Below, in pieces: positions 18,651 to 32,548 of a stretch of 36,730 bases of DNA. The position numbers and the translations under genes were made by a program. Every line of letters starts with the position of its first letter. The stretch's first letter is position 1. The stretch is from positions 1 to 36,730 of the forward strand of contig JANYAY010000126.1 in the NCBI GenBank assembly GCA_025361065.1, given 5' to 3'. The notes under the pieces were generated by a model, which was not told the origin of the DNA, did no database searches, and saw only the letters and a list, made by a program, of their open reading frames with translations. This DNA is from Deltaproteobacteria bacterium (GTDB taxonomy: Bacteria; Desulfobacterota; Syntrophia; Syntrophales; Smithellaceae).

Positions 18651-21600
18651 TTACCGTTTTAGTTCATCCCGGATGGCAACACCGATCTTTTCCAGCACAT
18701 ACGGCTTCCGGACGTATGCACCGGCTCCCAGTTTATGAGCCTTCTTCACTCGATCGGTTTCCGAAAAACCGCTGACCAGAATAGCCTTCTGCTGCGGGTT
18801 GATTTTGAGAACTCTTTGGTAGGTTTCGAGTCCATCAATCCCCGGCGCCATGATCATATCCAAAACAAGAATATCGGCCTTGTTTTCCCTGAGGTATTCC
18901 ACCGCTGCTTCCCCGCTGGATACGGTATTAACCTCATACCCCAGCTTTTTTAGTAATCCGGAGGCGACATCGCGCTGTTCGGCAATGTCATCAACGACCA
19001 ATACTGATTCCCCATTGCCCAGGTATCTTTCAATAGGAACTTTCTGCTGCGGTGTGAGCAGCTCCTCCCGTGTCACCGGGAAGTAAAGTGTAAAGGTGGT
19101 TCCCTCTCCGACTTCAGTTTGCACATCAATATATCCATTGTGATCTTTTATTGTTCCCCAGACAATCGCCAATCCCAATCCGGTCCCGCTCCGGCCCATG
19201 GTCTTCTTCGTATAAAACGGTTCAAATATCTTCTCTCTGTGCTCACCGGGGATACCCATGCCTGTATCGGATACAGTCAGAATGATGTAATCACCTTCCT
19301 TAATCTCGTCATAGCCTCTGATGGGTTTTTCCAGATAGCGATTCTGAGTCCGGATCATCACTTCTCCCGCTCCGGAGATAGATTCCGCCGCATTGGACAC
19401 CAGATTCATCAACGTCTTTTCCAGATGCATCGGGGAGCCTTTAATGTTCAACAGCTCCTCCTGGCACTCCGTCCGGAATGTCACGCGGGGATTAAAGTCC
19501 TTCATCTTCTCAAACACCGGGGTCTTGAGAAAATCTGCAACAACTTTGTTCAGATTGATAACATCTGATACCGACACACCCCGCCTGGCCAAGGTGAGAA
19601 GGTCCTGAATAATTGCGGCGCCCTTCTCTGTAGACTGAAAAATCTTTTCCGCGTGACCACGGGCGCGCTGCCCCTCGGGAATCTCCATCAGCAACAGTTC
19701 CGAGTAACCGCTGAGTACCCCCAGCACATTGTTCAGATCATGCGCTACTCCGCCGGCCAGTTGTCCGAGAGCCTCCATCTTTTCTGCACGATTCAGACGC
19801 TCTTCCAGGCTTCGCTTTTCTTCTTCCGCCTGCTTGCGCTCAGTAATATCCCGGGAAAGACCCCTAAATCCGATCGGCTTGCCTTCCGTGTCCCTGATCA
19901 GAGACACTGAATCTTCATGAAAGCCTTTCGTCCCATTTTTTCTGATAATTTCAATATCAAATCCCTTAATTGGTTTACCTGTAAGATAAACCTGTCCGAA
20001 GAGTTGATATGTTTTTCTGGCACTTGCTTCATCTTGAAACTGCCGGTTATTCATGCCGATCAATTCATCTCTGGAATATCCAATAATTTTGCACTCCGCA
20101 TCATTAACGAAAGTAAAATTGCCGGCAAGGTCAACTTCAAAATAGCCGTCTTCCATTTGCTCAATGATTGTGCGATGTTTTTCCTCGCTCTTGCGCAACG
20201 CCTCTTCGGCTTGCTTGCGCTCGGTAATTTCTCGATAGATGGACTGGTATGTGCCATCGGGCATCATTTTGCTGCGCATTTCAACTTGCACTTCAGTGAG
20301 GTCGGGACGAAGAATTGTACGCTCATTCACGACGACTTCGCCTTTTTGCAGCAAGTCAAAACTAAGAGGATTTTCCCGGAGACTATCCGGCTTAAATAAA
20401 ATATCGCTGATATGTTTCCCCATCATTTGTTCCCGCCTCAGGCCGGCCAGCGTGCACATGAAATCGTTAGCGTCAATAATGATAGCCTCTGGAGAACCTA
20501 AAAGTATCCCGTCTACAGCCAGATCGACAAGTCCGCGATACCGTCCCTCACTTTCCCGCAGAGCCTCATCCGTTCGCTTACGCTCAGTTATGTCAATTAC
20601 CTGAATAATGACTTTTGTTTTGCCCAATGAACCGAGGTATAAGGCACTACGCACCTCCCCAGTACGTTTTCGGCCATTTTTTTGCACAAACAAAAACTCA
20701 TATTGCGTTGGGACATCCTCCCCGAGTTGACGACGCCGGTTTCTTTCGGCTACCAATAATTTGCTTTCTTCGGCCAGCAGAAAAGTTAAATTCTTGCCAA
20801 GGATCTCCTGCTTTTCATAGCCAGCAATGTTACAGAACTCTTCATTTACATAGGTATACTGGAATACGTCATCGATGATGGCAATGCCGACAAGGGATCT
20901 TTCGACCACGGAACGGAATTTTTCCTCGCTTTCCCGCAGCGCTTCCTCTACCTGCCTGCGGTCGGTGATATTTCGGGCCACTGCCTGAAATCCCGTTACC
21001 TGGCCGTCCTCGACAATTAACTGGGTATTTTGCCCAATCCAGAACTTATGGCCCTTTTTCGATAGAAGCGGATATTCTAAATATGTATTTTGAATCCTCT
21101 TAACGAACTGTCGCCCGAAGAACCTGATGGTTTCATCACGCATATCCTTTCGGATAAAGGATGAATAATGCTTCCCAATCACATCCTCTTCTTTATATCC
21201 GAGATGATTGAGCGCGGGCTGATTTACGAAGGTAAAGTATCCAGCGTCGTCCGTCCTGAACACAATATCATTTGCATTTTCCACCAATGTCCGATAACTG
21301 ACTTCACTCTTCCGCAGTTTTTCCTCAGTTCGCTTATGCTCGGTTATGTCAAACTCAATTCCATCCCAGCAGATGGAGCCCCCTTCTATTAATCTCGGCG
21401 TTGATACCAGGGTGGACCATCTTATTCTTCCTGAGGGATCCTTTACCCGCACATCCAGCTCGAAAGTCGAAAATGTTTTCAAGGCCTCATTTTCAGCTTT
21501 TATCAGTAATTCGCTATCTTCTTCATGAACATTGCCGCAGATTAGAGCGGGGTCAGCAATACCTTCTTCGGGCGATATCCCATGCAATTGTCTGGCTGAA

Positions 21601-22202
21601 TTGCTTAAATAGGTGAATTTTTTCGTGCCATCGCGCTTCATGACAACCTGATAGATCATCGCTGACGGGAGATTATTGCTGATGGATTTAAGGCGGGATT
21701 CGCTCTCCCGCAGCGCATCCTCCGCCCGCTTGCGGTTAGTAATATCTTTGGAGGAACAGAGCGCAGAGGCTATTCCCCCTTGCGAGTCTTTAATCGGCGT
21801 AATCGTCGTTATGTAATAGCGGTCCCCGTCGGCCCGCGGGACACGCACCTCAATGACCTTCTCCTTCCCTGTGCGCAAAACCTGGCTCAGCGCAGCAAAG
21901 CGCTTGTCCGCCTCCTCCTGGGGAAAGACATCCCAAATAAGCTTACCAATTATGTCCTGGACCGGTTTGCCGACTCCCTCGGCGAAGGCTCTGTTGACGT
22001 ACCTGTATTGCCCTTCCGGACTGAAGGAGAAGATGGGATCGGGTGATTCTGAAAGAAGCATCCGGAGCTTCTCTTCACTTTCCTGCAGCCCATTATTCAC
22101 TAGTTTCAGCGTTGCTTCCGATATTTCCAGTTCCTGGATTCTCTGCTTTAAGAAGTCGTTTTCTTTGAGAAGCTCCTTATTTGTTCTGGATGGTTCACGC
22201 AT
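18651..22202 (-). CDS. Soluble hybrid histidine kinase with six PAS domains and a receiver
   Basis: An 1183-aa sensor kinase with no transmembrane segment. A coiled-coil start (about 8-45) is followed by six PAS units, at roughly 45-160, 168-292, 300-420, 427-547, 553-667 and 675-795. Each is closed by a 'DITERKQAEEALRESE'-type linker. The dimerisation domain has the phosphate-accepting His821 ('GGVAHDLNNVLG'). The ATPase domain shows 'NLVSNAAES', 'VSDTGMGIP' and 'GTGLGLAIVWG'. The receiver has acidic D1071/D1072, phospho-site D1115 ('ILVLDMIMAPGIDG') and K1166. The start has AAAGGAG upstream. With no output gene next to it, phosphotransfer to a distant protein is likely. The PAS ligands (haem, flavin or small molecules) cannot be told from sequence. 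Confidence 0.93.
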   Translation of the reverse strand: MREPSRTNKELLKENDFLKQRIQELEISEATLKLVNNGLQESEEKLRMLLSESPDPIFSFSPEGQYRYVNRAFAEGVGKPVQDIIGKLIWDVFPQEEADKRFAALSQVLRTGKEKVIEVRVPRADGDRYYITTITPIKDSQGGIASALCSSKDITNRKRAEDALRESESRLKSISNNLPSAMIYQVVMKRDGTKKFTYLSNSARQLHGISPEEGIADPALICGNVHEEDSELLIKAENEALKTFSTFELDVRVKDPSGRIRWSTLVSTPRLIEGGSICWDGIEFDITEHKRTEEKLRKSEVSYRTLVENANDIVFRTDDAGYFTFVNQPALNHLGYKEEDVIGKHYSSFIRKDMRDETIRFFGRQFVKRIQNTYLEYPLLSKKGHKFWIGQNTQLIVEDGQVTGFQAVARNITDRRQVEEALRESEEKFRSVVERSLVGIAIIDDVFQYTYVNEEFCNIAGYEKQEILGKNLTFLLAEESKLLVAERNRRRQLGEDVPTQYEFLFVQKNGRKRTGEVRSALYLGSLGKTKVIIQVIDITERKRTDEALRESEGRYRGLVDLAVDGILLGSPEAIIIDANDFMCTLAGLRREQMMGKHISDILFKPDSLRENPLSFDLLQKGEVVVNERTILRPDLTEVQVEMRSKMMPDGTYQSIYREITERKQAEEALRKSEEKHRTIIEQMEDGYFEVDLAGNFTFVNDAECKIIGYSRDELIGMNNRQFQDEASARKTYQLFGQVYLTGKPIKGFDIEIIRKNGTKGFHEDSVSLIRDTEGKPIGFRGLSRDITERKQAEEEKRSLEERLNRAEKMEALGQLAGGVAHDLNNVLGVLSGYSELLLMEIPEGQRARGHAEKIFQSTEKGAAIIQDLLTLARRGVSVSDVINLNKVVADFLKTPVFEKMKDFNPRVTFRTECQEELLNIKGSPMHLEKTLMNLVSNAAESISGAGEVMIRTQNRYLEKPIRGYDEIKEGDYIILTVSDTGMGIPGEHREKIFEPFYTKKTMGRSGTGLGLAIVWGTIKDHNGYIDVQTEVGEGTTFTLYFPVTREELLTPQQKVPIERYLGNGESVLVVDDIAEQRDVASGLLKKLGYEVNTVSSGEAAVEYLRENKADILVLDMIMAPGIDGLETYQRVLKINPQQKAILVSGFSETDRVKKAHKLGAGAYVRKPYVLEKIGVAIRDELKR

Positions 22203-22340: not shown

Positions 22341-22369
22341 TTGACAAATAGTTTTTTTTCCGTTAATAG
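22341..22369 (+). promoter_or_regulatory. Promoter of the ilv operon
   Basis: Consensus -35 TTGACA (22341-22346) is followed after 17 bases by TAATAG (22364-22369). Transcription from about 22376 would give a leader of about 290 bases before ilvB, holding the leader peptide and the attenuator. On the opposite strand TTGACA (22306-22311, minus) may belong to the kinase gene, but no good -10 is seen for it. Confidence 0.6.
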
Positions 22370-22405
22370 AAAAAGCAAGATTAGCAAATAGATGGGACAT
22401 GAAAT

Positions 22406-22510
22406 ATGTATCTTAAAGATTTGGTTGGCGGCAAGAGCCTGATTATCAGCAACGTAAGGGTACTCGTAGTAGTACTCGGGGGTCTGCCGCTCCGTATCTT
22501 TAAGAAATAG
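22406..22510 (+). CDS. ilv leader peptide, 34 aa, rich in Leu/Ile/Val
   Basis: ATG at 22406 with GGGA (22394-22397) eight bases upstream opens a 34-codon frame ending at TAG (22508-22510). Sixteen of 34 residues are branched-chain (7 Leu, 6 Val, 3 Ile). The run of control codons is GTA AGG GTA CTC GTA GTA GTA CTC (22454-22477), reading VRVLVVVL; an LII cluster lies earlier. This is what is expected of an attenuation leader peptide such as ilvL or ivbL: scarcity of charged tRNA stalls the ribosome and changes downstream folding. It has no function as a protein. It is followed by tandem hairpins and ilvB, which supports the call. Confidence 0.8.
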   Translation: MYLKDLVGGKSLIISNVRVLVVVLGGLPLRIFKK

Positions 22511-22609
22511 AATTAAAGATACAAGCCGCGGGCCCCTAAAACCCGCGGCTTTGTTATTTCGGAAACAAAGCCGCCTTTTCGCAAGAAGAGAAGCGGCTTT
22601 TTTGTTTTT
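22494..22609 (+). promoter_or_regulatory. Transcription attenuator of ilvBNC (alternative hairpins)
   Basis: Four helices can be drawn. GTATCTTTAA (22494-22503) pairs with TTAAAGATAC (22513-22522), with the leader stop codon in the loop. AAGCCGCGGG (22523-22532) pairs with CCCGCGGCTT (22542-22551). AAAGCCGC (22567-22574) pairs with GCGGCTTT (22593-22600), followed by TTTGTTTTT, a strong intrinsic terminator. The alternative GCGGCTTTGTT (22545-22555) with AACAAAGCCGC (22564-22574) is a perfect 11-bp match that destroys both the second and the terminator helix. The 1:2, 2:3, 3:4 arrangement is that of an amino-acid attenuator. Confidence 0.8.
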
Positions 22610-22666
22610 CAGGCTCTCTTAAAAAAGCATCATAAGAATAAACATTTGTTTTGGAGGTAGTAAAAA

Positions 22667-24370
22667 ATGAAGTTGAAAGGTTCACAAATCCTGCTGAAAA
22701 TGCTGGAACTCGAAAAAGTAGATATTATTTTCGGATATCCGGGTGGCACCGTCCTTGATATTTATGACCAGCTCTATAAAAGCAAATTAAAACATATTTT
22801 AGTTCGTCATGAACAAGGTGCGGTTCACGCGGCCGACGGGTACGCTCGTGCCACCGGAAAAGTAGGAGTGTGTCTTGTTACTTCCGGTCCCGGTGCCACA
22901 AATACTGTGACCGGCATAGCAACGGCCAACATGGATTCTATACCTCTCGTTGTTTTTACCGGGCAGGTTCCCACAACCTTAATCGGCAATGACGCTTTTC
23001 AGGAATGCGACATCACCGGAATAACACGCCCCTGCACCAAACATAATTTTCTTGTCCGTAATATCGAAGAATTGGCTGCAACAATCAAAGAAGCTTTCCA
23101 TATTGCCCGCACGGGACGGCCCGGCCCCGTCTTAGTGGATTTGCCGAAGAATGTAATGGCTGCGGAAATTGATTTTGATCCCGCCACTATCCAGATCAGG
23201 AATCATGAGACTATCCATAAACCGGCTCCAAAAAAGATGGCTCAGGTTTATGAAATGCTTTCCCACGCTAAAAGACCATTAATCATGACCGGCGGCGGCG
23301 TCATTCTGGGCAAGGCCTCGTCCGAGCTCACCGAGTTGAGCAGAAAATATCAAATCCCGGTCACCGGTACCTTAATGGGTATCGGTTCCTTTCCGGGAAC
23401 AGATCCACTCTGGCTGGGCATGTTAGGCATGCATGGAACATATTACGCCAATATGGCCGTGAGCCACTGCGATTTATTGATCGCCGTGGGGGTGCGTTTT
23501 GATGACCGGGTAACCGGCACAATTGAAACTTTTGCCGCTAACGCCCAAATTGTGCAAATTGATATCGACCCTTCCTCCATTAACAAAAATGTCGTTGTTG
23601 ATTTGCCGATTATCGGCGCAACGAAGACTACCCTGCAAGATATGCTCAAATTTTTAGCCGAGCATAATTATATGCAGCAGGCAGCAGAGCGCAAGGAATG
23701 GCTGGAACAAATTGCCGGATGGAAAGAGCAGGTTCCCTTAACCTATTGCCAAAACGGCAAGGTAATTAAACCGCAACAGGTCATTGAAACACTCCATAAA
23801 GTAACTAAAGGCGATGTCATTATAACAACCGAAGTCGGCCAGAATCAGATGTGGACTGCGCAATTTTTCCCTTTCGATCTGCCCAATACATTTATTACCT
23901 CCGGCGGATTGGGTACAATGGGTTATGGACTGCCGGCCGCCATCGGGGTGAAGTGCGCCTTTCCCGACAAACAGGTGGTGGATATTGCCGGTGACGGCAG
24001 TATTCAGATGAATATCCAGGAATTAGCCACGGCTGCGCAATATAATATTAATGTAAAAATAGTGCTTTTGAACAACGGTTATCTGGGGATGGTGCGTCAA
24101 TGGCAGGAATTATTCTATGAAAAGCGCTATTCCCACACCGACATGACTTACGCACCCGATTTTGTAAAATTGGCGGAGGCTTTTGGTATCGTCGGTTTGC
24201 GCGCTACAAAACCGGAAGAAATAGAACCAACATTGATAAAGGGTCTTGCTCTGAATAAACCGGTATTGATGGATTTCCGTGTTTCGCGTGACGAATGTGT
24301 TTATCCAATGGTGGGACCGGGTTCATCCATCAGTGAAATGAAATTGGGTACGAGGGAAATGATTAATTAA
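22667..24370 (+). CDS. ilvB: Acetolactate synthase large (catalytic) subunit
   Basis: This TPP enzyme condenses two pyruvates to acetolactate, or pyruvate with 2-oxobutyrate, the first common step of valine, leucine and isoleucine synthesis. Visible features: N-terminal 'IIFGYPGGTVLDIYDQLY', catalytic E49 ('VRHEQGAVHAADGYARATG'), 'VTSGPGATNTVTGIATA', the FAD region around 'GVRFDDRVTGT', and the TPP/Mg motif 'DIAGDGSIQMN' to 'LLNNGYLGM' (about 440-474). At 567 aa it is full length. GGAGGT precedes the ATG. It is the first structural gene after the attenuator and forms a holoenzyme with the ilvN product encoded 28 bases downstream. Confidence 0.96.
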   Translation: MKLKGSQILLKMLELEKVDIIFGYPGGTVLDIYDQLYKSKLKHILVRHEQGAVHAADGYARATGKVGVCLVTSGPGATNTVTGIATANMDSIPLVVFTGQVPTTLIGNDAFQECDITGITRPCTKHNFLVRNIEELAATIKEAFHIARTGRPGPVLVDLPKNVMAAEIDFDPATIQIRNHETIHKPAPKKMAQVYEMLSHAKRPLIMTGGGVILGKASSELTELSRKYQIPVTGTLMGIGSFPGTDPLWLGMLGMHGTYYANMAVSHCDLLIAVGVRFDDRVTGTIETFAANAQIVQIDIDPSSINKNVVVDLPIIGATKTTLQDMLKFLAEHNYMQQAAERKEWLEQIAGWKEQVPLTYCQNGKVIKPQQVIETLHKVTKGDVIITTEVGQNQMWTAQFFPFDLPNTFITSGGLGTMGYGLPAAIGVKCAFPDKQVVDIAGDGSIQMNIQELATAAQYNINVKIVLLNNGYLGMVRQWQELFYEKRYSHTDMTYAPDFVKLAEAFGIVGLRATKPEEIEPTLIKGLALNKPVLMDFRVSRDECVYPMVGPGSSISEMKLGTREMIN

Positions 24371-24398: not shown

Positions 24399-24884
24399 AT
24401 GGAAAAAAAAGAGCATATAATTTCAATTCTCGTGCATAACAAGCCGGATGTGCTGGCCAGGATCGCGGGGGCATTGGGTGGCAAAGGATACAACATCGAA
24501 AGCCTGTCTGTTAACACAACGACTTCCTATGAAATATCCAAAATCGTGATGACATCCGTCGGCAATCAGGCCACTATCACCAGGATTGAAAATCAATTGC
24601 GCAGGATTGTCGATGTCATTGCAGTAGATGATTTAACCAATGTTGAGTCCATTCACCGTGAACTTATTTTAGTCAAGCTAATCTTGACGGCAGACTCCAA
24701 AGCCAAAATAGAAAAAGCAATTGACACATACAAATGGAAAGTAATAGTGTCCGCTGATACCTATATAATTCTGGAAATAACCGGTGATAAACCGCAAATT
24801 GATTTTGCCTTAGCCCGCCTGGAGCCGATGGGCATCGCCGATATAACCAGAACAGGTATTGTAGCATTGGCATTAGAAAACTAG
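24399..24884 (+). CDS. ilvN: Acetolactate synthase small (regulatory) subunit
   Basis: A 161-aa regulatory subunit, the length of E. coli IlvH. The N-terminal ACT domain (about 6-75) shows 'HIISILVHNKPDVLARIAG' and 'KGYNIESLSVNTT'; the C-terminal domain starts near 'HRELILVKLILTAD'. It activates IlvB and normally binds valine at the ACT interface. The position usually held by Gly (G14 in E. coli IlvH) is Asp17 here (codon GAT in CAT AAC AAG CCG GAT). Replacement of that Gly by Asp in the E. coli protein is known to give valine resistance, so feedback may be weak. AAAGGA serves as ribosome site. Confidence 0.95.
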   Translation: MEKKEHIISILVHNKPDVLARIAGALGGKGYNIESLSVNTTTSYEISKIVMTSVGNQATITRIENQLRRIVDVIAVDDLTNVESIHRELILVKLILTADSKAKIEKAIDTYKWKVIVSADTYIILEITGDKPQIDFALARLEPMGIADITRTGIVALALEN

Positions 24885-24931: not shown

Positions 24932-25990
24932 ATGGCACAAATTAACTTTGGTGGTACTTTAGAAGATGTTATTACGGCAGATGAGTTTTCCATTAAAAAA
25001 GCTCAGGAAGTTTTAAAAAATGAAGTGATTGCGATAATTGGTTATGGTGTTCAAGGCCCGGCACAGGCTTTTAACATGAAAGATAATGGTATTAATGTCA
25101 TTATTGGCCAGGCCGAGGAAGATAAACCCTACTGGGATAAAGCCGTTGCCGATGGCTGGGTTCCCGGAAAAAATCTTTTCCCGATAGAAGAAGCGGTAAA
25201 GCGCGGGACGATTATTCAATATCTGGTTTCCGATGCCGCCCAGATGATGCTCTGGCCCAAGGTTAAGGCCAATTTAAAAAAAGGTGATGCCCTTTATTTC
25301 TCCCATGGCTTCTCTATTGTCTATAAAGAACAGACCGGTGTCATTCCCCCTGATTTTGTGGACGTAATTATGGTGGCGCCGAAAGGTTCAGGCACCAGCG
25401 TGCGGCGGAATTTCCTGGATGGCAGCGGCATTAACTCCAGCATTGCCGTACATCAGGATGCCACCGGCCGGGCCATGGAAAGAACACTTGCTCTGGGAAT
25501 TGCGATCGGTTCGGGATTCCTTTTCCCGACTACTTTCCAGATGGAAGTATACAGCGACTTGACCGGTGAGCGCGGCGTTCTAATGGGTGCTCTGGCCGGC
25601 ATGATGGAGGCACAATACAATGAATTGCGCAAACACGGCCACACTCCCAGTGAAGCTTTCAACGAAACCGTGGAAGAGCTGACACAAAGCCTCATTCGTT
25701 TAGTCGGTGAAAATGGCATGGATTGGATGTACGCCAATTGCTCTACGACGGCGCAAAGAGGCGCTCTGGACTGGCGGCATAAATTCCGCAAAGCCGTAGA
25801 ACCGGTATTTGCCGAACTTTACGATGCTGTAGCCACAGGCAAAGAAACGGAAATCGTGCTGAGAGTGAACAGCGCGGCGGACTATAAAGTGAAGCTCGAT
25901 GCCGAGCTCAAAGAAATGCGGGATTCCGAAATGTGGCAGGCAGGTATGGCGGTGCGCGCGTTGAGACCGGAAAAAAGGACAAAGAAATAA
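24932..25990 (+). CDS. ilvC: Ketol-acid reductoisomerase, short class with acidic cofactor loop
   Basis: Converts acetolactate to dihydroxyisovalerate with NAD(P)H and Mg. At 352 aa it is class I (single knotted domain). The Rossmann motif is 'AIIGYGVQGPAQAFNMKD' (35-51). The loop after beta-2, which sets cofactor choice, reads 'GQAEEDKPYWDKA' (59-71); related 'GYGVQG' enzymes usually have basic and Ser residues there. 'FSHGFSIVYKEQTG' and 'DLTGERGVLMGALAGMMEAQYN' carry catalytic and metal ligands. AAGGGGG precedes the ATG. It follows ilvN by 47 bases and is probably last in the attenuated transcript, since a terminator hairpin follows. Confidence 0.95.
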   Translation: MAQINFGGTLEDVITADEFSIKKAQEVLKNEVIAIIGYGVQGPAQAFNMKDNGINVIIGQAEEDKPYWDKAVADGWVPGKNLFPIEEAVKRGTIIQYLVSDAAQMMLWPKVKANLKKGDALYFSHGFSIVYKEQTGVIPPDFVDVIMVAPKGSGTSVRRNFLDGSGINSSIAVHQDATGRAMERTLALGIAIGSGFLFPTTFQMEVYSDLTGERGVLMGALAGMMEAQYNELRKHGHTPSEAFNETVEELTQSLIRLVGENGMDWMYANCSTTAQRGALDWRHKFRKAVEPVFAELYDAVATGKETEIVLRVNSAADYKVKLDAELKEMRDSEMWQAGMAVRALRPEKRTKK

Positions 25991-26000
25991 GCAAATATTA

Positions 26001-26028
26001 AAAATGCCCCGGCCCTCCGGGGCATTTT
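26001..26028 (+). terminator. Intrinsic terminator after ilvC
   Basis: AAAATGCCCCGG (26001-26012) and CCGGGGCATTTT (26017-26028) form a perfect 12-bp stem with a CCCT loop, starting 10 bases after the ilvC stop. With A and T tracts on both sides it can act in both directions. It separates ilvBNC from ilvD. Confidence 0.75.
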
Positions 26029-26075
26029 GCTGTTAATGGTGGCAAACTCGTGAAAAGTCGAAATACCATAAAACT

Positions 26076-26156
26076 GTCATTCCGTGCAAGCGAAGCGCGA
26101 CACGGAATCCAGTAATGTCAGTAATTTCTAGATACCGGCCTACGCCGGTATGACGA
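26076..26156. repeat. Dispersed repeat copy between ilvC and ilvD
   Basis: GTCATTCCGTGCAAGCGAAG (26076-26095) followed by GCGACACGGAATCCAG is the reverse complement of the core at 29571-29605. It continues with a second part, ATACCGGCCTACGCCGGTAT (26132-26151), a near-palindrome. A copy of this family also lies at 171-309. No coding potential. Confidence 0.6.
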
Positions 26157-26234
26157 CTTTTTATTAGGCTTTCAATTGTAATTGATACTTTTTTGATTAA
26201 TCCATTTCTGTAAAATAATTAGGGAGAAAAAAAT

Positions 26235-27896
26235 ATGAGAAGCGATCTCATGAAGAAGGGGTTGGAAAGAGCGCCGCATCGTTCGCTCTTTAAGGCCATG
26301 GGTTATACCGATGAAGAAATTGCCCGGCCGTTAATCGGTGTCGTCAATTCCGCCAATGAAATAATTCCCGGGCATATCCATCTGGATTTAATTACGCAGG
26401 ATGTGAAAGCAGGAATTCGCATGTCCGGTGGAACACCGGTGGAATTTCCGGTTATCGGCGTATGTGACGGCATTGCGATGGGTCATGCCGGCATGAAATA
26501 TTCGCTGGCCAGCCGCGAATTGATTGCCGACTCCATTGAAATTATGGCCAGCGCGCATCCTTTCGACGCTCTGGTTTTTATTCCCAACTGCGACAAAATC
26601 ATCCCCGGAATGCTCATGGCGGCAATGCGCTTGAATATTCCGGCAATTTTTATCAGCGGCGGGCCCATGCTCGCCGGAAAAATGGCCGGAAAGGCCGTTG
26701 ACCTGATCAGCGTTTTTGAAGGCGTGGGAGCGGTCAAGGCTAAGCGTATGACCCAAAATGAATTAAAACAACTCGAAGATTGCGCCTGTCCCGGGTGTGG
26801 TTCCTGCTCCGGCATGTATACGGCCAACTCCATGAATTGCGTGACTGAAGCATTGGGACTGGGTCTTCCCGGTAATGGCACGATTCCCGCGGTTCAGGCG
26901 GCCCGCCATCGCTTGGCCAAATATGCCGGTATGAAAATTATGGAGCTCTATAAGAAGAATATCAAGCCGCGCGATATCGCCACGCTGGCCGCTTTTCAAA
27001 ATGCGATTGCTGTCGATATGGCACTGGGCTGCTCGACCAACACCGTTTTACATATTCCGGCCATTGCCCACGAAGCGGGCATCAAACTGGATTTGAACCT
27101 TTTTAACAAAATCAGTGAGAAGACACCGAACCTCTGCAAATTAAGTCCGGCCGGACCTCATCATATTGAAGATCTCGATACCGCGGGCGGCATTCAGGCT
27201 GTCATGAAGGTTATTAACACTATTGGCGTTATTAATAAGAAAGCACTGACCGTAACCGGTAAAACTGTTGAAGCCAATTTAAAAATCGCCCGTGTTTTGG
27301 ACGACAAAGTTATCCGTCCCTTGAATAATCCCTATTCGCCGCAGGGCGGCATAGCCGTTTTGCGCGGTAACCTGGCGCCGGACGGAGCGGTGGTCAAACA
27401 ATCGGCCGTCGCCGCCGCCATGCAGGTAAACGAAGGCCGCGCTAGGGTTTTTGAATGTGAAGACGATGCCATTGCGGCAATTCTGGGCGGGAAAATTAAG
27501 ACCGGTGATGTCGTAGTCATTCGTTATGAAGGGCCGAAAGGTGGCCCGGGCATGCGGGAAATGCTCGGACCAACATCAGCCATAGTCGGCATGGGTTTGG
27601 ATAAAACCGTTGCGCTTCTGACTGACGGCCGTTTCAGCGGCGGCACACAGGGCGCGGCCATCGGCCATATTTCACCGGAAGCGGCCGAAGGTGGACCTAT
27701 TGCTTTAGTACAGGAAGGCGACATCATTACCATTAATATTCCCGCAAAAACTCTTAATTTACAAGTAAGCGACAAGGAACTGGAAAAACGCCGCAAGTCC
27801 TTGAAGCCGTTCAAACCGTCGATTACCAGCGGTTACCTGGCACGCTACGCCAAGCTTGTCACTTCCGCGTCTACGGGGGCGATTTTCCGGGATTGA
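26235..27896 (+). CDS. ilvD: Dihydroxy-acid dehydratase
   Basis: Removes water from dihydroxyisovalerate or dihydroxymethylvalerate to give the 2-oxo acids, using an iron-sulfur cluster. Probable cluster cysteines are C77 ('[11 protein letters not shown]'), C119 ('[11 protein letters not shown]') and C191 ('[17 protein letters not shown]'). The segment 'EIIPGHIHL' has Gly where [2Fe-2S] dehydratases have a Cys in a PCN motif, resembling the oxygen-sensitive [4Fe-4S] E. coli type and fitting an anaerobe. The C-terminal signature '[27 protein letters not shown]' is present. At 553 aa it is full length. AGGGAG lies upstream. It is cut off from ilvC by a terminator and a repeat, so it may have its own promoter. 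Confidence 0.96.
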
Positions 27897-31078: not shown

Positions 31079-32548
31079 TCAAATATGCGGGAAGGTTTTT
31101 TTGTACAGGGCAGTAAAACTATCTTTGCCGCACGCCAGCATTAGTGTCAGCGGCATGATTTTTTTTGCGGCTTGCAGCATTTCATCGGAAAGCTTGCGGA
31201 TATCCCATTGGGCGTGTTCATCTGATCGCAGACGGGCCAGATGATAAAGCTCCCGGGCATTGACTTTCATCAATACTCTCTTACGGTGTGCATTGGTCAG
31301 GATATAGGGGGCGGCAAGCGGCGCCTTTCCCCGAATTTGTTCATAGGCGTCTTGTGTCCGGCGCATAATTTCCAGAAATTGCTTTTTCTGTCCGATTGCG
31401 CAAACGGCCGGGGGAATCGTAACTCCTAAACCGGGATCATAATCCTGAGCGATAATAGTCGCCATTCTGTGTCTTTTTAATTGGGCAAAACAACTGGCGC
31501 TCATTACCAGCTCAAATTGCAGATCAATATTTTCCAGCTCCCGCAACGCGGCATCATGCGCCTGAATATGTTCAAAGGTTGTTTTAAACAATGCTTTCTT
31601 TTCTCTCGGGGTGAGCCCGGCAGCCAGATCCAGGCATTGCTCATGATTGAAACCGGATGCAGAAAAAAGCAGAGCGGCGGCGGCTCTGATATCGGCATCC
31701 GGCGTCACAAAAGATATTTTTACGGCAGGAGATTTCTGAACACCGGCTTTGGGAGGATATTTTTTCGCCAGGGCGGCTGCCTGCATGCACAAATTAAATC
31801 TCGTGAGCCGATCGTAATCAGTAGCTTGAGTATAACGAATAAGCGATGGGGCAATGTCTTTGGTGGCCGCATATAATTTATTGCTGTACTCCTGCGCTTC
31901 CACCAGCTGTAATGCCGCGAACCTGCGCAGCATCAGTTCCAGATTACGGGCATTAATGGTCATCCCTAATTGGGTCTCGGTGGCGAGCGCTATGGCATAA
32001 CGGGCATCTTCCTTGGCCCAGCCTTCCAGCAATGATTTGTTGGCGGGATTTTCCGCCAGAACCTGATTCTCCGCAAATACATGTGGACGAAGCTTTGCGT
32101 AGAGTTCGCGATAATAATCATTTTGCATGCCTACGGTATCGGTAAACAGCTCCTTCAGGCCTGCCTGCATTATTTCTTCCGGAATAACAAAATCTTTATT
32201 GAATAGAACATAGCGCTGCGATTTTTCCGTATAGGAGCATAAACGAAATTTCTCAATTTCTTCGATTATCAATCGGGAGGCGCCAATCACATCAATATTA
32301 AAGACGGCGTGTTCCGCAACCGAACTGTGTCCCATGTCAAAGACAATGTTGCGATTGGATTTACGGGCTTTCTCGACCTCGGCGCGGGCATCGGAACGCA
32401 GTTCGTTAACCGGCTTCGGGCTGCGGCTGATGCGGGCATAGGCGGCGGAAATGGTCTCCGGTGTAAGATCCTGCGTCGATGCACACTTGTCGCGGAGTTC
32501 TTTGATCAGATCGTAATCTAAATTGTAACCGGCAAGAAGAATATTCAT
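31079..32548 (-). CDS. thyX: Double-length flavin-dependent thymidylate synthase (tandem ThyX)
   Basis: ThyX makes dTMP from dUMP with methylene-THF and FAD. Ordinary enzymes are about 220-250 aa; this one is 489 aa and contains two ThyX-like halves. The N-half has 'FDMGHSSVAEHAVFNIDV' (70-87), 'KFRLCSYTEKSQRY' (100-113) and 'TINARNLELMLRRF' with a following 'VEAQEYS'. The C-half has 'FEHIQAHDAAL', 'LKRHRMATIIAQDYDPG' (357-373), and 'VNARELYHLARLR' with 'HAQWDIR' (429-451). The usual RHRxxSxNExSxRY signature is split: SxxxxSxRY survives in the first half, RHR in the second. Divergent double-length ThyX proteins exist in a few lineages. No ThyA or other folate gene is nearby. Activity is likely, not proven. 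Confidence 0.85.
   Translation of the reverse strand: MNILLAGYNLDYDLIKELRDKCASTQDLTPETISAAYARISRSPKPVNELRSDARAEVEKARKSNRNIVFDMGHSSVAEHAVFNIDVIGASRLIIEEIEKFRLCSYTEKSQRYVLFNKDFVIPEEIMQAGLKELFTDTVGMQNDYYRELYAKLRPHVFAENQVLAENPANKSLLEGWAKEDARYAIALATETQLGMTINARNLELMLRRFAALQLVEAQEYSNKLYAATKDIAPSLIRYTQATDYDRLTRFNLCMQAAALAKKYPPKAGVQKSPAVKISFVTPDADIRAAAALLFSASGFNHEQCLDLAAGLTPREKKALFKTTFEHIQAHDAALRELENIDLQFELVMSASCFAQLKRHRMATIIAQDYDPGLGVTIPPAVCAIGQKKQFLEIMRRTQDAYEQIRGKAPLAAPYILTNAHRKRVLMKVNARELYHLARLRSDEHAQWDIRKLSDEMLQAAKKIMPLTLMLACGKDSFTALYKKTFPHI

Follow-up and report, generated by a model that had tools for sequence, protein, structure and literature searches.

Leader-peptide attenuators are classically known from the enterobacterial trp and ilvGMEDA operons, are explained by the Yanofsky model, and have been studied best in enterobacteria. 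The surveys of Lopatovskaya (2010) and Seliverstov (2005) are said to predict the same class of regulation in many bacteria. The accessible literature text places such attenuators in Proteobacteria, Actinobacteria and some Firmicutes (PMC2965389) and describes a leader, terminator, antiterminator and anti-antiterminator for the ilvBNC operon of Corynebacterium (PMC11857589; PMC10272879). The Corynebacterium system (ilvB-II) resembles the leader reported here in its operon, its I/L/V-rich leader ORF and its terminator and antiterminator, and has three hairpins and an anti-antiterminator (PMC10272879, PMC11857589). It differs in having, in the available part of its description, one terminator, and is reported only in Corynebacterium (103 representatives; PMC10272879). 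The ilvB-OMG motif (41 representatives in various phyla) and the Leptospira ilvB motif (seven representatives), compared here by description, also lie 5' of ilvB, with predicted leader ORFs that encode many branched-chain amino acids and Thr residues (excerpted in PMC10272879). The trpB motif RF04312 of Firmicutes and Fusobacteria is a riboswitch candidate that likewise precedes amino-acid genes and, as far as its partial description goes, has two hairpins with the terminator second (PMC11109978). Its model scores 21.7 bits on our sequence, below the gathering score of 59, and none of 20 relatives reaches that score.

We analyzed a leader from the Smithella family (Syntrophales, Desulfobacterota) that has, by sequence and predicted fold, the tested sequence and structure features of the Yanofsky-type class. 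No Rfam 15 family matched at its gathering score in the window (the whole 36,730-nt stretch of DNA analyzed) or in 40 other loci; 14 sub-threshold matches obtained on the leader at a relaxed E-value were judged to be chance. Our literature search, which left most subscription journals outside its reach, found no report of tandem terminators combined with attenuation and a leader peptide. Among the titles listed on attenuation in Deltaproteobacteria, Desulfovibrio, Geobacter and Desulfobacterota, none reports these leaders. Attenuators of this kind are already known; the two-terminator arrangement and its spread across pathways and phylum look new.

The ilvBNC leader and its RNA segments

The source genome is a 3.95-Mb draft. 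In the window, a divergent intergenic region separates a minus-strand gene (18651-22202), which from its sequence we read as PAS-domain and histidine-kinase-like, from three plus-strand genes. These are ilvB (acetolactate synthase large subunit, 22667-24370; TIGR00118, 842.7 bits), ilvN (small subunit, 24399-24884; TIGR00119, 134.4 bits) and ilvC (ketol-acid reductoisomerase, 24932-25990; TIGR00465, 307.3 bits). The gap between ilvC and ilvD (25999-26235) holds an intrinsic-terminator-like hairpin and inverted-repeat elements, and no leader ORF was seen there by eye; ilvD may be transcribed separately from ilvC. A putative promoter (22341-22369, plus strand) pairs TTGACA at 22341-22346 with a weak -10 element, TAATAG, at 22364-22369 across a 17-nt spacer. 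The initial annotation had reported this promoter, and its upstream element holds up: 58 of 59 leaders carry TTGAC within 130 nt 5' of their start, compared with a mean of 5.4 and a maximum of 12 of 59 in shuffles. Those 59 were drawn from 65 leaders, six being omitted because they have no leader by the rule or less than 100 nt upstream. The -10 element fares less well, as TAATAG matches TATAAT at just three of six positions, no systematic -10 occurrence was found among the same leaders, and the TTGACA/TAATAG pair is absent from the list returned by a promoter scan of the window.

The predicted leader peptide, MYLKDLVGGKSLIISNVRVLVVVLGGLPLRIFKK, is encoded on the plus strand at 22406-22510 by 34 codons, 16 of them for Leu, Ile or Val, and is supported by its ORF and by conservation in relatives. 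Its control codons, Val-Arg-Val-Leu-Val-Val-Val-Leu, occupy 22454-22477 and have the same support. We number the RNA segments, all on the plus strand, from 0 to 5. Segment 0, the 5' part of the leader (22407-22437), pairs with the tail (about 22478-22509) in the ribosome-free fold. Segment 1 is the leader tail GGGGGUCUGC (22478-22487), whose partner, identified by pairing and by a swap test and for the tail also by folding, is the segment 2 arm GCGGGCCCCU (22528-22537). This arm overlaps the 5' arm of the first hairpin. Within helix 1:2, folding and covariation support an inner stem (22494-22522) between GUAUCUUU at 22494-22501 and AAAGAUAC at 22515-22522, whose loop contains the stop codon of the leader (22508-22510).

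Two putative terminators follow, each supported by folding, a U tract and conservation. T1 (2:3, 22523-22559) is a 10-bp stem, 22523-22532/22542-22551, with the U tract UUUGUUAUUU; T2 (4:5, 22567-22606) is an 8-bp stem, 22567-22574/22593-22600, with its own U tract. Between them lies helix 3:4 (22545-22574), indicated by pairing and folding, with 11 bp at 22545-22555/22564-22574. The leader ORF, its control run, the stem around the stop codon and the three overlapping hairpins had all been located correctly in the initial annotation, and the three helices (10, 11 and 8 bp) are perfectly paired in the window sequence. The middle match, which had been said to exclude the terminator, excludes both T1 and T2. 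The initial annotation had missed three parts: the arm formed by the tail, the masking arm in the leader's 5' part, and the U tract that follows the first hairpin. At least seven T in 10 nt follow the T1 stem in 60 of 65 leaders and the T2 stem in all 65, against a background of 3.5%; the first hairpin is therefore probably a terminator itself, and by sequence both intrinsic terminators stand ahead of the first structural gene. The fold energy of the region is exceptional (z of -4.8 for 22376-22666 and -6.65 for 22491-22606, with none of 200 shuffles as good in either case).

As in enterobacterial attenuators, there is a leader ORF with control codons, followed by protector, antiterminator and terminator segments, and the system would be off without translation. 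Helices 0:1, 1:2 and 2:3 of the window correspond to the enterobacterial 1:2, 2:3 and 3:4, and 1:2 overlaps 2:3 so that the two are mutually exclusive, as expected of an antiterminator. In the family leaders these three helices probably constitute a classical four-segment attenuator to which segments 4 and 5 are an addition. The window differs from the enterobacterial systems in placing the antiterminator arm in the translated tail, and in having a second terminator that can pair, through its 5' arm, with the 3' arm of the first once this is freed.

Conservation and covariation in related leaders

A gene for ilvB was found in 110 of 119 genomes, including that of the window, and in 49 of 51 genomes of the Smithella family. 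We collected 90 upstream regions of up to 700 nt, window included, with lower-ranked matches and second paralogues covered in part. The succession of tail and arms 2, 3, 4 and 5 is present in 65 of the 90 regions of the order and in 48 of 49 in the Smithella family. ORFs of 12-60 amino acids with at least eight I/L/V in 12 residues occur in 76 of 90 regions and in 21 of 450 dinucleotide shuffles. In the family, a leader ORF with at least seven I/L/V in 12 accompanies 46 of the 48 pattern-bearing regions; one exception (L115) has six of 12 and the other (L120) has no start by the rule. Across these 46 leaders, V, L or I make up 354 of the 414 residues in the nine codons ahead of the tail. Relatives typically have leaders that read MFLKDL...VLVLVVVVLTGSAALYL if they belong to the Smithella family and ...VVVVVVVVQAGTAARTF if they belong to another. 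Conservation of the tail RNA extends to leaders with a different reading frame: 43 leaders share one frame (mostly Gly-Ser-Ala-Ala), and three, including the window, use another. It thus seems that the peptide tail is conserved as a consequence of the RNA. The single examined family region without the arms (L119, 5' of ilvB on contig C44 of genome G027) has an upstream sequence that looks repeat-like, and a cut leader copy with its leader intact (L204) lies at the end of another contig of that genome, so rearrangement or misassembly is possible.

Compact I/V-rich leaders of a different type precede ilvB in other Syntrophales families and in some Desulfobacterales. These leaders have a single terminator (AAACCGUUACC), and its 5' arm is bound directly by the tail together with the stop codon (such as UGAUGGUUU). 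The pairing beats at least 190 of 200 shuffles in 21 of 26 such leaders and falls short in five (set: L039, L137, L139, L142, L146, L150, L153-L155, L157-L162, L164, L165, L167-L169, L171, L044, L050, L060, L067, L072). For class-A leaders, we considered and dropped a direct pairing of the tail with the last terminator, as in these simpler leaders, because the tail and arm 4 have the same sense.

The pairings were assessed in an alignment of 37 ilvB leaders (A3) and another of 43 non-ilvB sequences (A4). Aligning relatives, as the initial annotation had proposed, bore out the conservation of the leader ORF (46 of 49 family regions) and of the L/I/V codons, and gave a divided answer on helix 1:2 and, in A3, on helix 3:4: positive by doubly changed cells, unexceptional by counts of pairs and pair types, which are less prone to relatedness. 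In A3, helix 1:2 with the inner stem shows standard pairs in 85.5% of cells (94.3% for 1:2 alone) and 23 doubly changed cells against 10.0 in shuffles (0/500), 22 of which fall in the inner stem. Counts of pairs (7 against 5.3; 69/500) and types (20 against 19.1; 201/500) are unexceptional. In A4, helix 1:2 has 31 doubly changed cells against 16.5 in shuffles (0/500), with the excess absent in pairs (217/500) and types (401/500). T1 and T2 are nearly invariant among ilvB leaders, and in A4 they covary by both measures counted, with 64 doubly changed cells against 21.5 and nine pairs against 4.4 (both 0/500). Helix 3:4 is 90.3% paired in A3 and has 17 doubly changed cells against 9.4 (0/500), with unexceptional pairs (273/500) and types (91/500). 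This signal comes mainly from one clade difference: 32 of 48 family members have G-C where 12 of 17 others have U-A. Covariation of 3:4 is absent in A4 and also inside the Smithella family, where 37 of 48 members are paired against 34.8 in shuffles (270/2000).

The swap test, applied to 106 of 114 candidate loci in five groups, shows coevolution of tail and arm 2 at the level of computed pairing. Group means for a tail with its own arm 2 range from -24.3 to -28.3 kcal/mol, and those for a tail with the arms of other groups from -17.2 to -25.5 kcal/mol, 17 of the 20 being -21.0 or weaker. Swapping arm 2 within a group leaves binding nearly equal to that of the own arm in four of the five groups, the aromatic group excepted. 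The own tail beats at least 95 of 100 tail shuffles at 94 of the 106 loci.

Ribosome position and the predicted fold

We consider it quite likely that the leader controls ilvBNC through ribosome-mediated transcription attenuation, with charged tRNA for Val (and Leu/Ile) as the sensed signal. As a kind of regulation, this is what the initial annotation had claimed, and it agrees with the conservation of leader and hairpins, the coevolution and the match of codons to pathway; the mechanism given there was incomplete. In the mechanism that we propose, segment 0 would pair with segment 1 if there is no translation, so that T1 and T2 form and transcription stops. A ribosome stalled in the Val/Leu run would keep segment 0 off segment 1, which would be left free to pair with segment 2 and thereby block T1. 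The freed 3' arm of T1 (segment 3) would then take the 5' arm of T2 (segment 4), and RNA polymerase would read through. A ribosome that reaches the stop codon would cover the tail region, allowing T1 and T2 to form and transcription to end. We are less certain of the relay by which the second terminator would be undone through the freed 3' arm of the first. The direct support for our proposal consists of the sequences, their conservation, the coevolution of tail and arm 2, the covariation of T1 and T2 in non-ilvB relatives and the correspondence of codons to genes. From these we infer translation, stalling, timing, termination at each site, and selection on 3:4 as opposed to its being a by-product.

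Folding the leader with and without a ribosome, a check suggested in the initial annotation, had a mixed outcome: ribosome position chooses the fold when only downstream RNA may pair, and makes no difference when pairing around the ribosome is allowed. In the downstream-RNA model, only RNA from 13 nt past the first base of the A-site codon can pair. With A-site codons 17-21 of the window, 1:2 has a probability of 0.99, 3:4 of 0.93-0.97, T1 of 0-0.01 and T2 of 0.01; with codons 22-35, T1 rises to 0.89-0.95 and T2 to 0.75-0.88. As target structures on 22467-22606, the read-through form (1:2, inner stem, 3:4) has -40.7 kcal/mol and the terminated form (inner stem, T1, T2) -35.6 kcal/mol. When the RNA is cut at the T1 U tract, T1 stays at 0.73-0.97 at the stall and the states are not separated. 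When upstream leader RNA is allowed to pair around the ribosome, termination is predicted at every codon with no effect of position. This model was set aside because helix 0:1 would enclose the ribosome in a loop of about 40 nt; its result remains one that counts against a simple reading, and it led to the idea of a no-translation state.

Without a ribosome, the outcome predicted for the window varies with the chosen RNA ends. On 22406-22606, segment 0 pairs with the tail and the mean probabilities are 0.92 for T1 and 0.87 for T2 (strongest pairs 1.00 and 0.99); on 22376-22666, T1 has 0.63, 1:2 has 0.31, and the minimum-free-energy fold is the read-through structure. When leaders are folded from their start, 50 of 62 give T1 a probability above 0.5 (37 of 46 in the family, 13 of 16 others), these 62 being the 65 less three without a leader by the rule. 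For binding to the tail, segment 0 outperforms 95% of its shuffles in 44 of 46 leaders of the family and in six of 14 others, so it is probably a protector segment in the family.

The downstream-RNA model was also applied to the same 62 leaders with the ribosome at different positions. Mean P(T1) rises from 0.31 with the ribosome in the run to 0.96 with it at the stop, with a shift above 0.2 in 57 leaders and a reversal in none. P(3:4), with arm 5 not yet made, is 0.93 in the run and 0.22 at the stop (57 as expected, none reversed), and P(T2) is 0.63 and 0.87 (29 as expected, two reversed). Among 42 non-ilvB relatives, those of 49 with a scorable leader and two stems, the numbers expected and reversed between stall and stop are 34 and 0 for 3:4, 8 and 0 for T1, and 2 and 1 for T2. 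The weak separation of T1 and T2 in these aromatic and transport relatives implies that folding in order of synthesis is needed. Equilibrium folding in this model thus supports the direction of the switch but, in most of these relatives, not full read-through, so synthesis order would have to hold 1:2 and 3:4. In the window, the tail lies 5' of a ribosome at the stop codon, and masking would therefore be less direct than in relatives with shorter leaders.

Some of these results would suit a plain four-segment attenuator (0:1, 1:2 and 2:3 as T1) in which T2 is a mere back-up and 3:4 a by-product of similar tandem terminators. We regard this as possible, though rather unlikely. T2 left undefeated would end the read-through transcript, and a stalled ribosome favors 3:4 in 57 of the 62 leaders and in 34 of the 42 relatives, without a reversal. 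The clade difference is also relevant: the U tract of T1 is broken in 32 of 48 Smithella relatives by a G opposite a C in arm 4, where 12 of 17 members of other families have U-A. Such a G should weaken both terminators and helps only 3:4. A back-up role would agree with the absence of covariation of 3:4 in the non-ilvB set and within the family, with the persistence of T2 at equilibrium in most of the 42 relatives even when the ribosome is stalled, and with the leaders of leuA and two binding-protein genes in the genome of the window, which by eye have a single terminator. It is highly improbable that the switch is a chain of three hairpins without a tail arm, as the initial annotation had it. 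The usual footprint never reaches segment 2 from the leader: with 12 nt protected past the A-site codon, a ribosome that is stalled or at the stop codon (22508) ends short of 22523, so the same chain would form both ways and the choice would be unset, even though its three helices exist. The tail arm exists as well and prefers its own arm 2 over most foreign ones, and the link from ribosome to hairpins is likely the pairing of 22478-22487 with 22528-22537.

We give equally little credence to a riboswitch or protein-binding leader in which the ORF is incidental. The RNA structure is strong and conserved, and of similar motifs, in the available part of PMC10272879, ilvB-OMG was first classed among RNAs of unknown function and ilvB among weak riboswitch candidates. 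Here, however, the codon run varies with the downstream gene on a constant RNA chassis, and the searched loci match no Rfam family at its gathering score. Slightly less credible still is a leader peptide that acts in trans, or leader translation that serves coupling alone, without attenuation. A trans role has been reported for a trp leader peptide (excerpt of PMC7298713). The six control codons of 46 leaders, in contrast, differ pairwise by 1008 synonymous changes, 1155 changes from one of I, L or V to another and 569 others (the pairs being non-independent), and the tail RNA is kept while its frame varies (43 and three leaders). Both observations suggest that what matters is the RNA and the identity of the codons, not the sequence of the peptide.

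The same chassis before other genes

Within the order, a covariance model of T1 and T2 built from 37 ilvB leaders (R1) gave matches at E <= 0.01 in 145 of 155 genomes, 127 of which have a best E below 1e-12. Across the phylum, at E <= 0.001, 86 of 395 genomes matched, many weakly. Seven of the matches opened (L197, L205-L209, L212) show a leader of the window type before a second, ilvB-like paralogue, about 45% identical, in several families of the order; the two may have moved as a unit or have been retained together. The weaker matches opened (49 loci) are leaders of other genes, apart from a few without a clear leader. The control run, V/L/I before ilvB, changes with the gene in these relatives: Trp runs precede trpE, Phe/Tyr runs precede DAHP and ADH synthase genes, and a Leu run precedes leuA. 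Leaders with Phe runs of the FFFSFFSFF type mostly precede periplasmic binding proteins (L219, L220, L222, L231, L234, L217), an assignment for which Pfam was applied to L220 alone. These leaders predict Phe-controlled transporters.

A second model (R2) was built from 43 of the 49 loci, with columns that begin no earlier than where the control run ends, although the last Phe codon stays in the Phe rows. It matched 153 of 155 genomes of the order (E <= 1e-5) and 165 of 395 of the phylum (E <= 1e-6); these are matches, with leaders checked for some. We sampled 40 further R2 matches outside the order, their flanks unseen at the time of choice. A leader ORF with at least five of seven F/Y/W, or three of seven W, was present in 37 of the 40, 12 with a Trp run and 25 with Phe/Tyr only; single-base shuffles give F/Y/W and W runs at 0.002 and 0.001 per locus. 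The 39 readable downstream genes comprise, for the trp type, anthranilate synthase (8), anthranilate phosphoribosyltransferase-type (3) and TrpB-like PLP enzyme (3), and otherwise DAHP synthase (10), DeoC-family aldolase (13) and class I/II aminotransferase (2). The DeoC-family aldolase is taken for ADH synthase, as a similar protein (L253) matches TIGR01949. In the 36 cases with both run and gene, trp genes follow 11 of 12 Trp-run leaders and none of 24 Phe/Tyr-run leaders (Fisher p = 2e-8). Trp-type genes follow even the three sampled matches without a run (L335, L349, L353).

Several such leaders occur in the genome of the window itself. A DAHP synthase leader (C126:6277) reads ...SFYGYWFYTYF... 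and has two terminators, a leuA leader (C180:14272) reads ...LLPGLSLLSLL... and has one, and the leader of a TrpB-like gene (C80:30209) reads ...NNNWWWQALTVCP in a frame of our own reading. Of two binding-protein leaders, one (C55:104007) has a Phe run, its gene being assigned by resemblance to L220 with no NCBIfam match at 1e-30, and the other (C20:20985) has both a Tyr-run and an Ile-rich frame. A weak match (C76:12958, L267; E 0.02) has an ELLLCLLLLVL ORF and a terminator before a 2-oxoacid oxidoreductase gamma gene, possibly placing keto acid chemistry under the same control. No convincing leader was seen among the other weak matches examined in this genome.

On balance, we lean slightly towards one modular Desulfobacterota chassis, consisting of a ribosome-sensing tail, T1, and a T2 slaved to it through the released 3' arm. 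This chassis would have been re-coded repeatedly (Val/Leu/Ile, Leu, Trp, Phe/Tyr) for branched-chain, aromatic and transport genes, and the ilvBNC leader would be one of about six or seven in its genome, some of them with a single terminator. The initial annotation had placed the novelty in the organism type; the novelty is wider, as the chassis also stands ahead of genes for Trp, Phe/Tyr and Leu. A single RNA design that matches no Rfam family precedes branched-chain, aromatic and transport genes in hosts for which draft genomes are the main source of knowledge. From the design one can predict what these hosts sense, and it points to many leader peptides. It offers a natural series in which the sensing codons vary on a constant switch, and raises the question of whether one antiterminator can defeat two successive terminators.

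Elsewhere in the window, the minus strand at 31079-32548 encodes a 489-aa protein in which two stretches match the FAD-dependent thymidylate synthase ThyX, perhaps as a result of tandem duplication.
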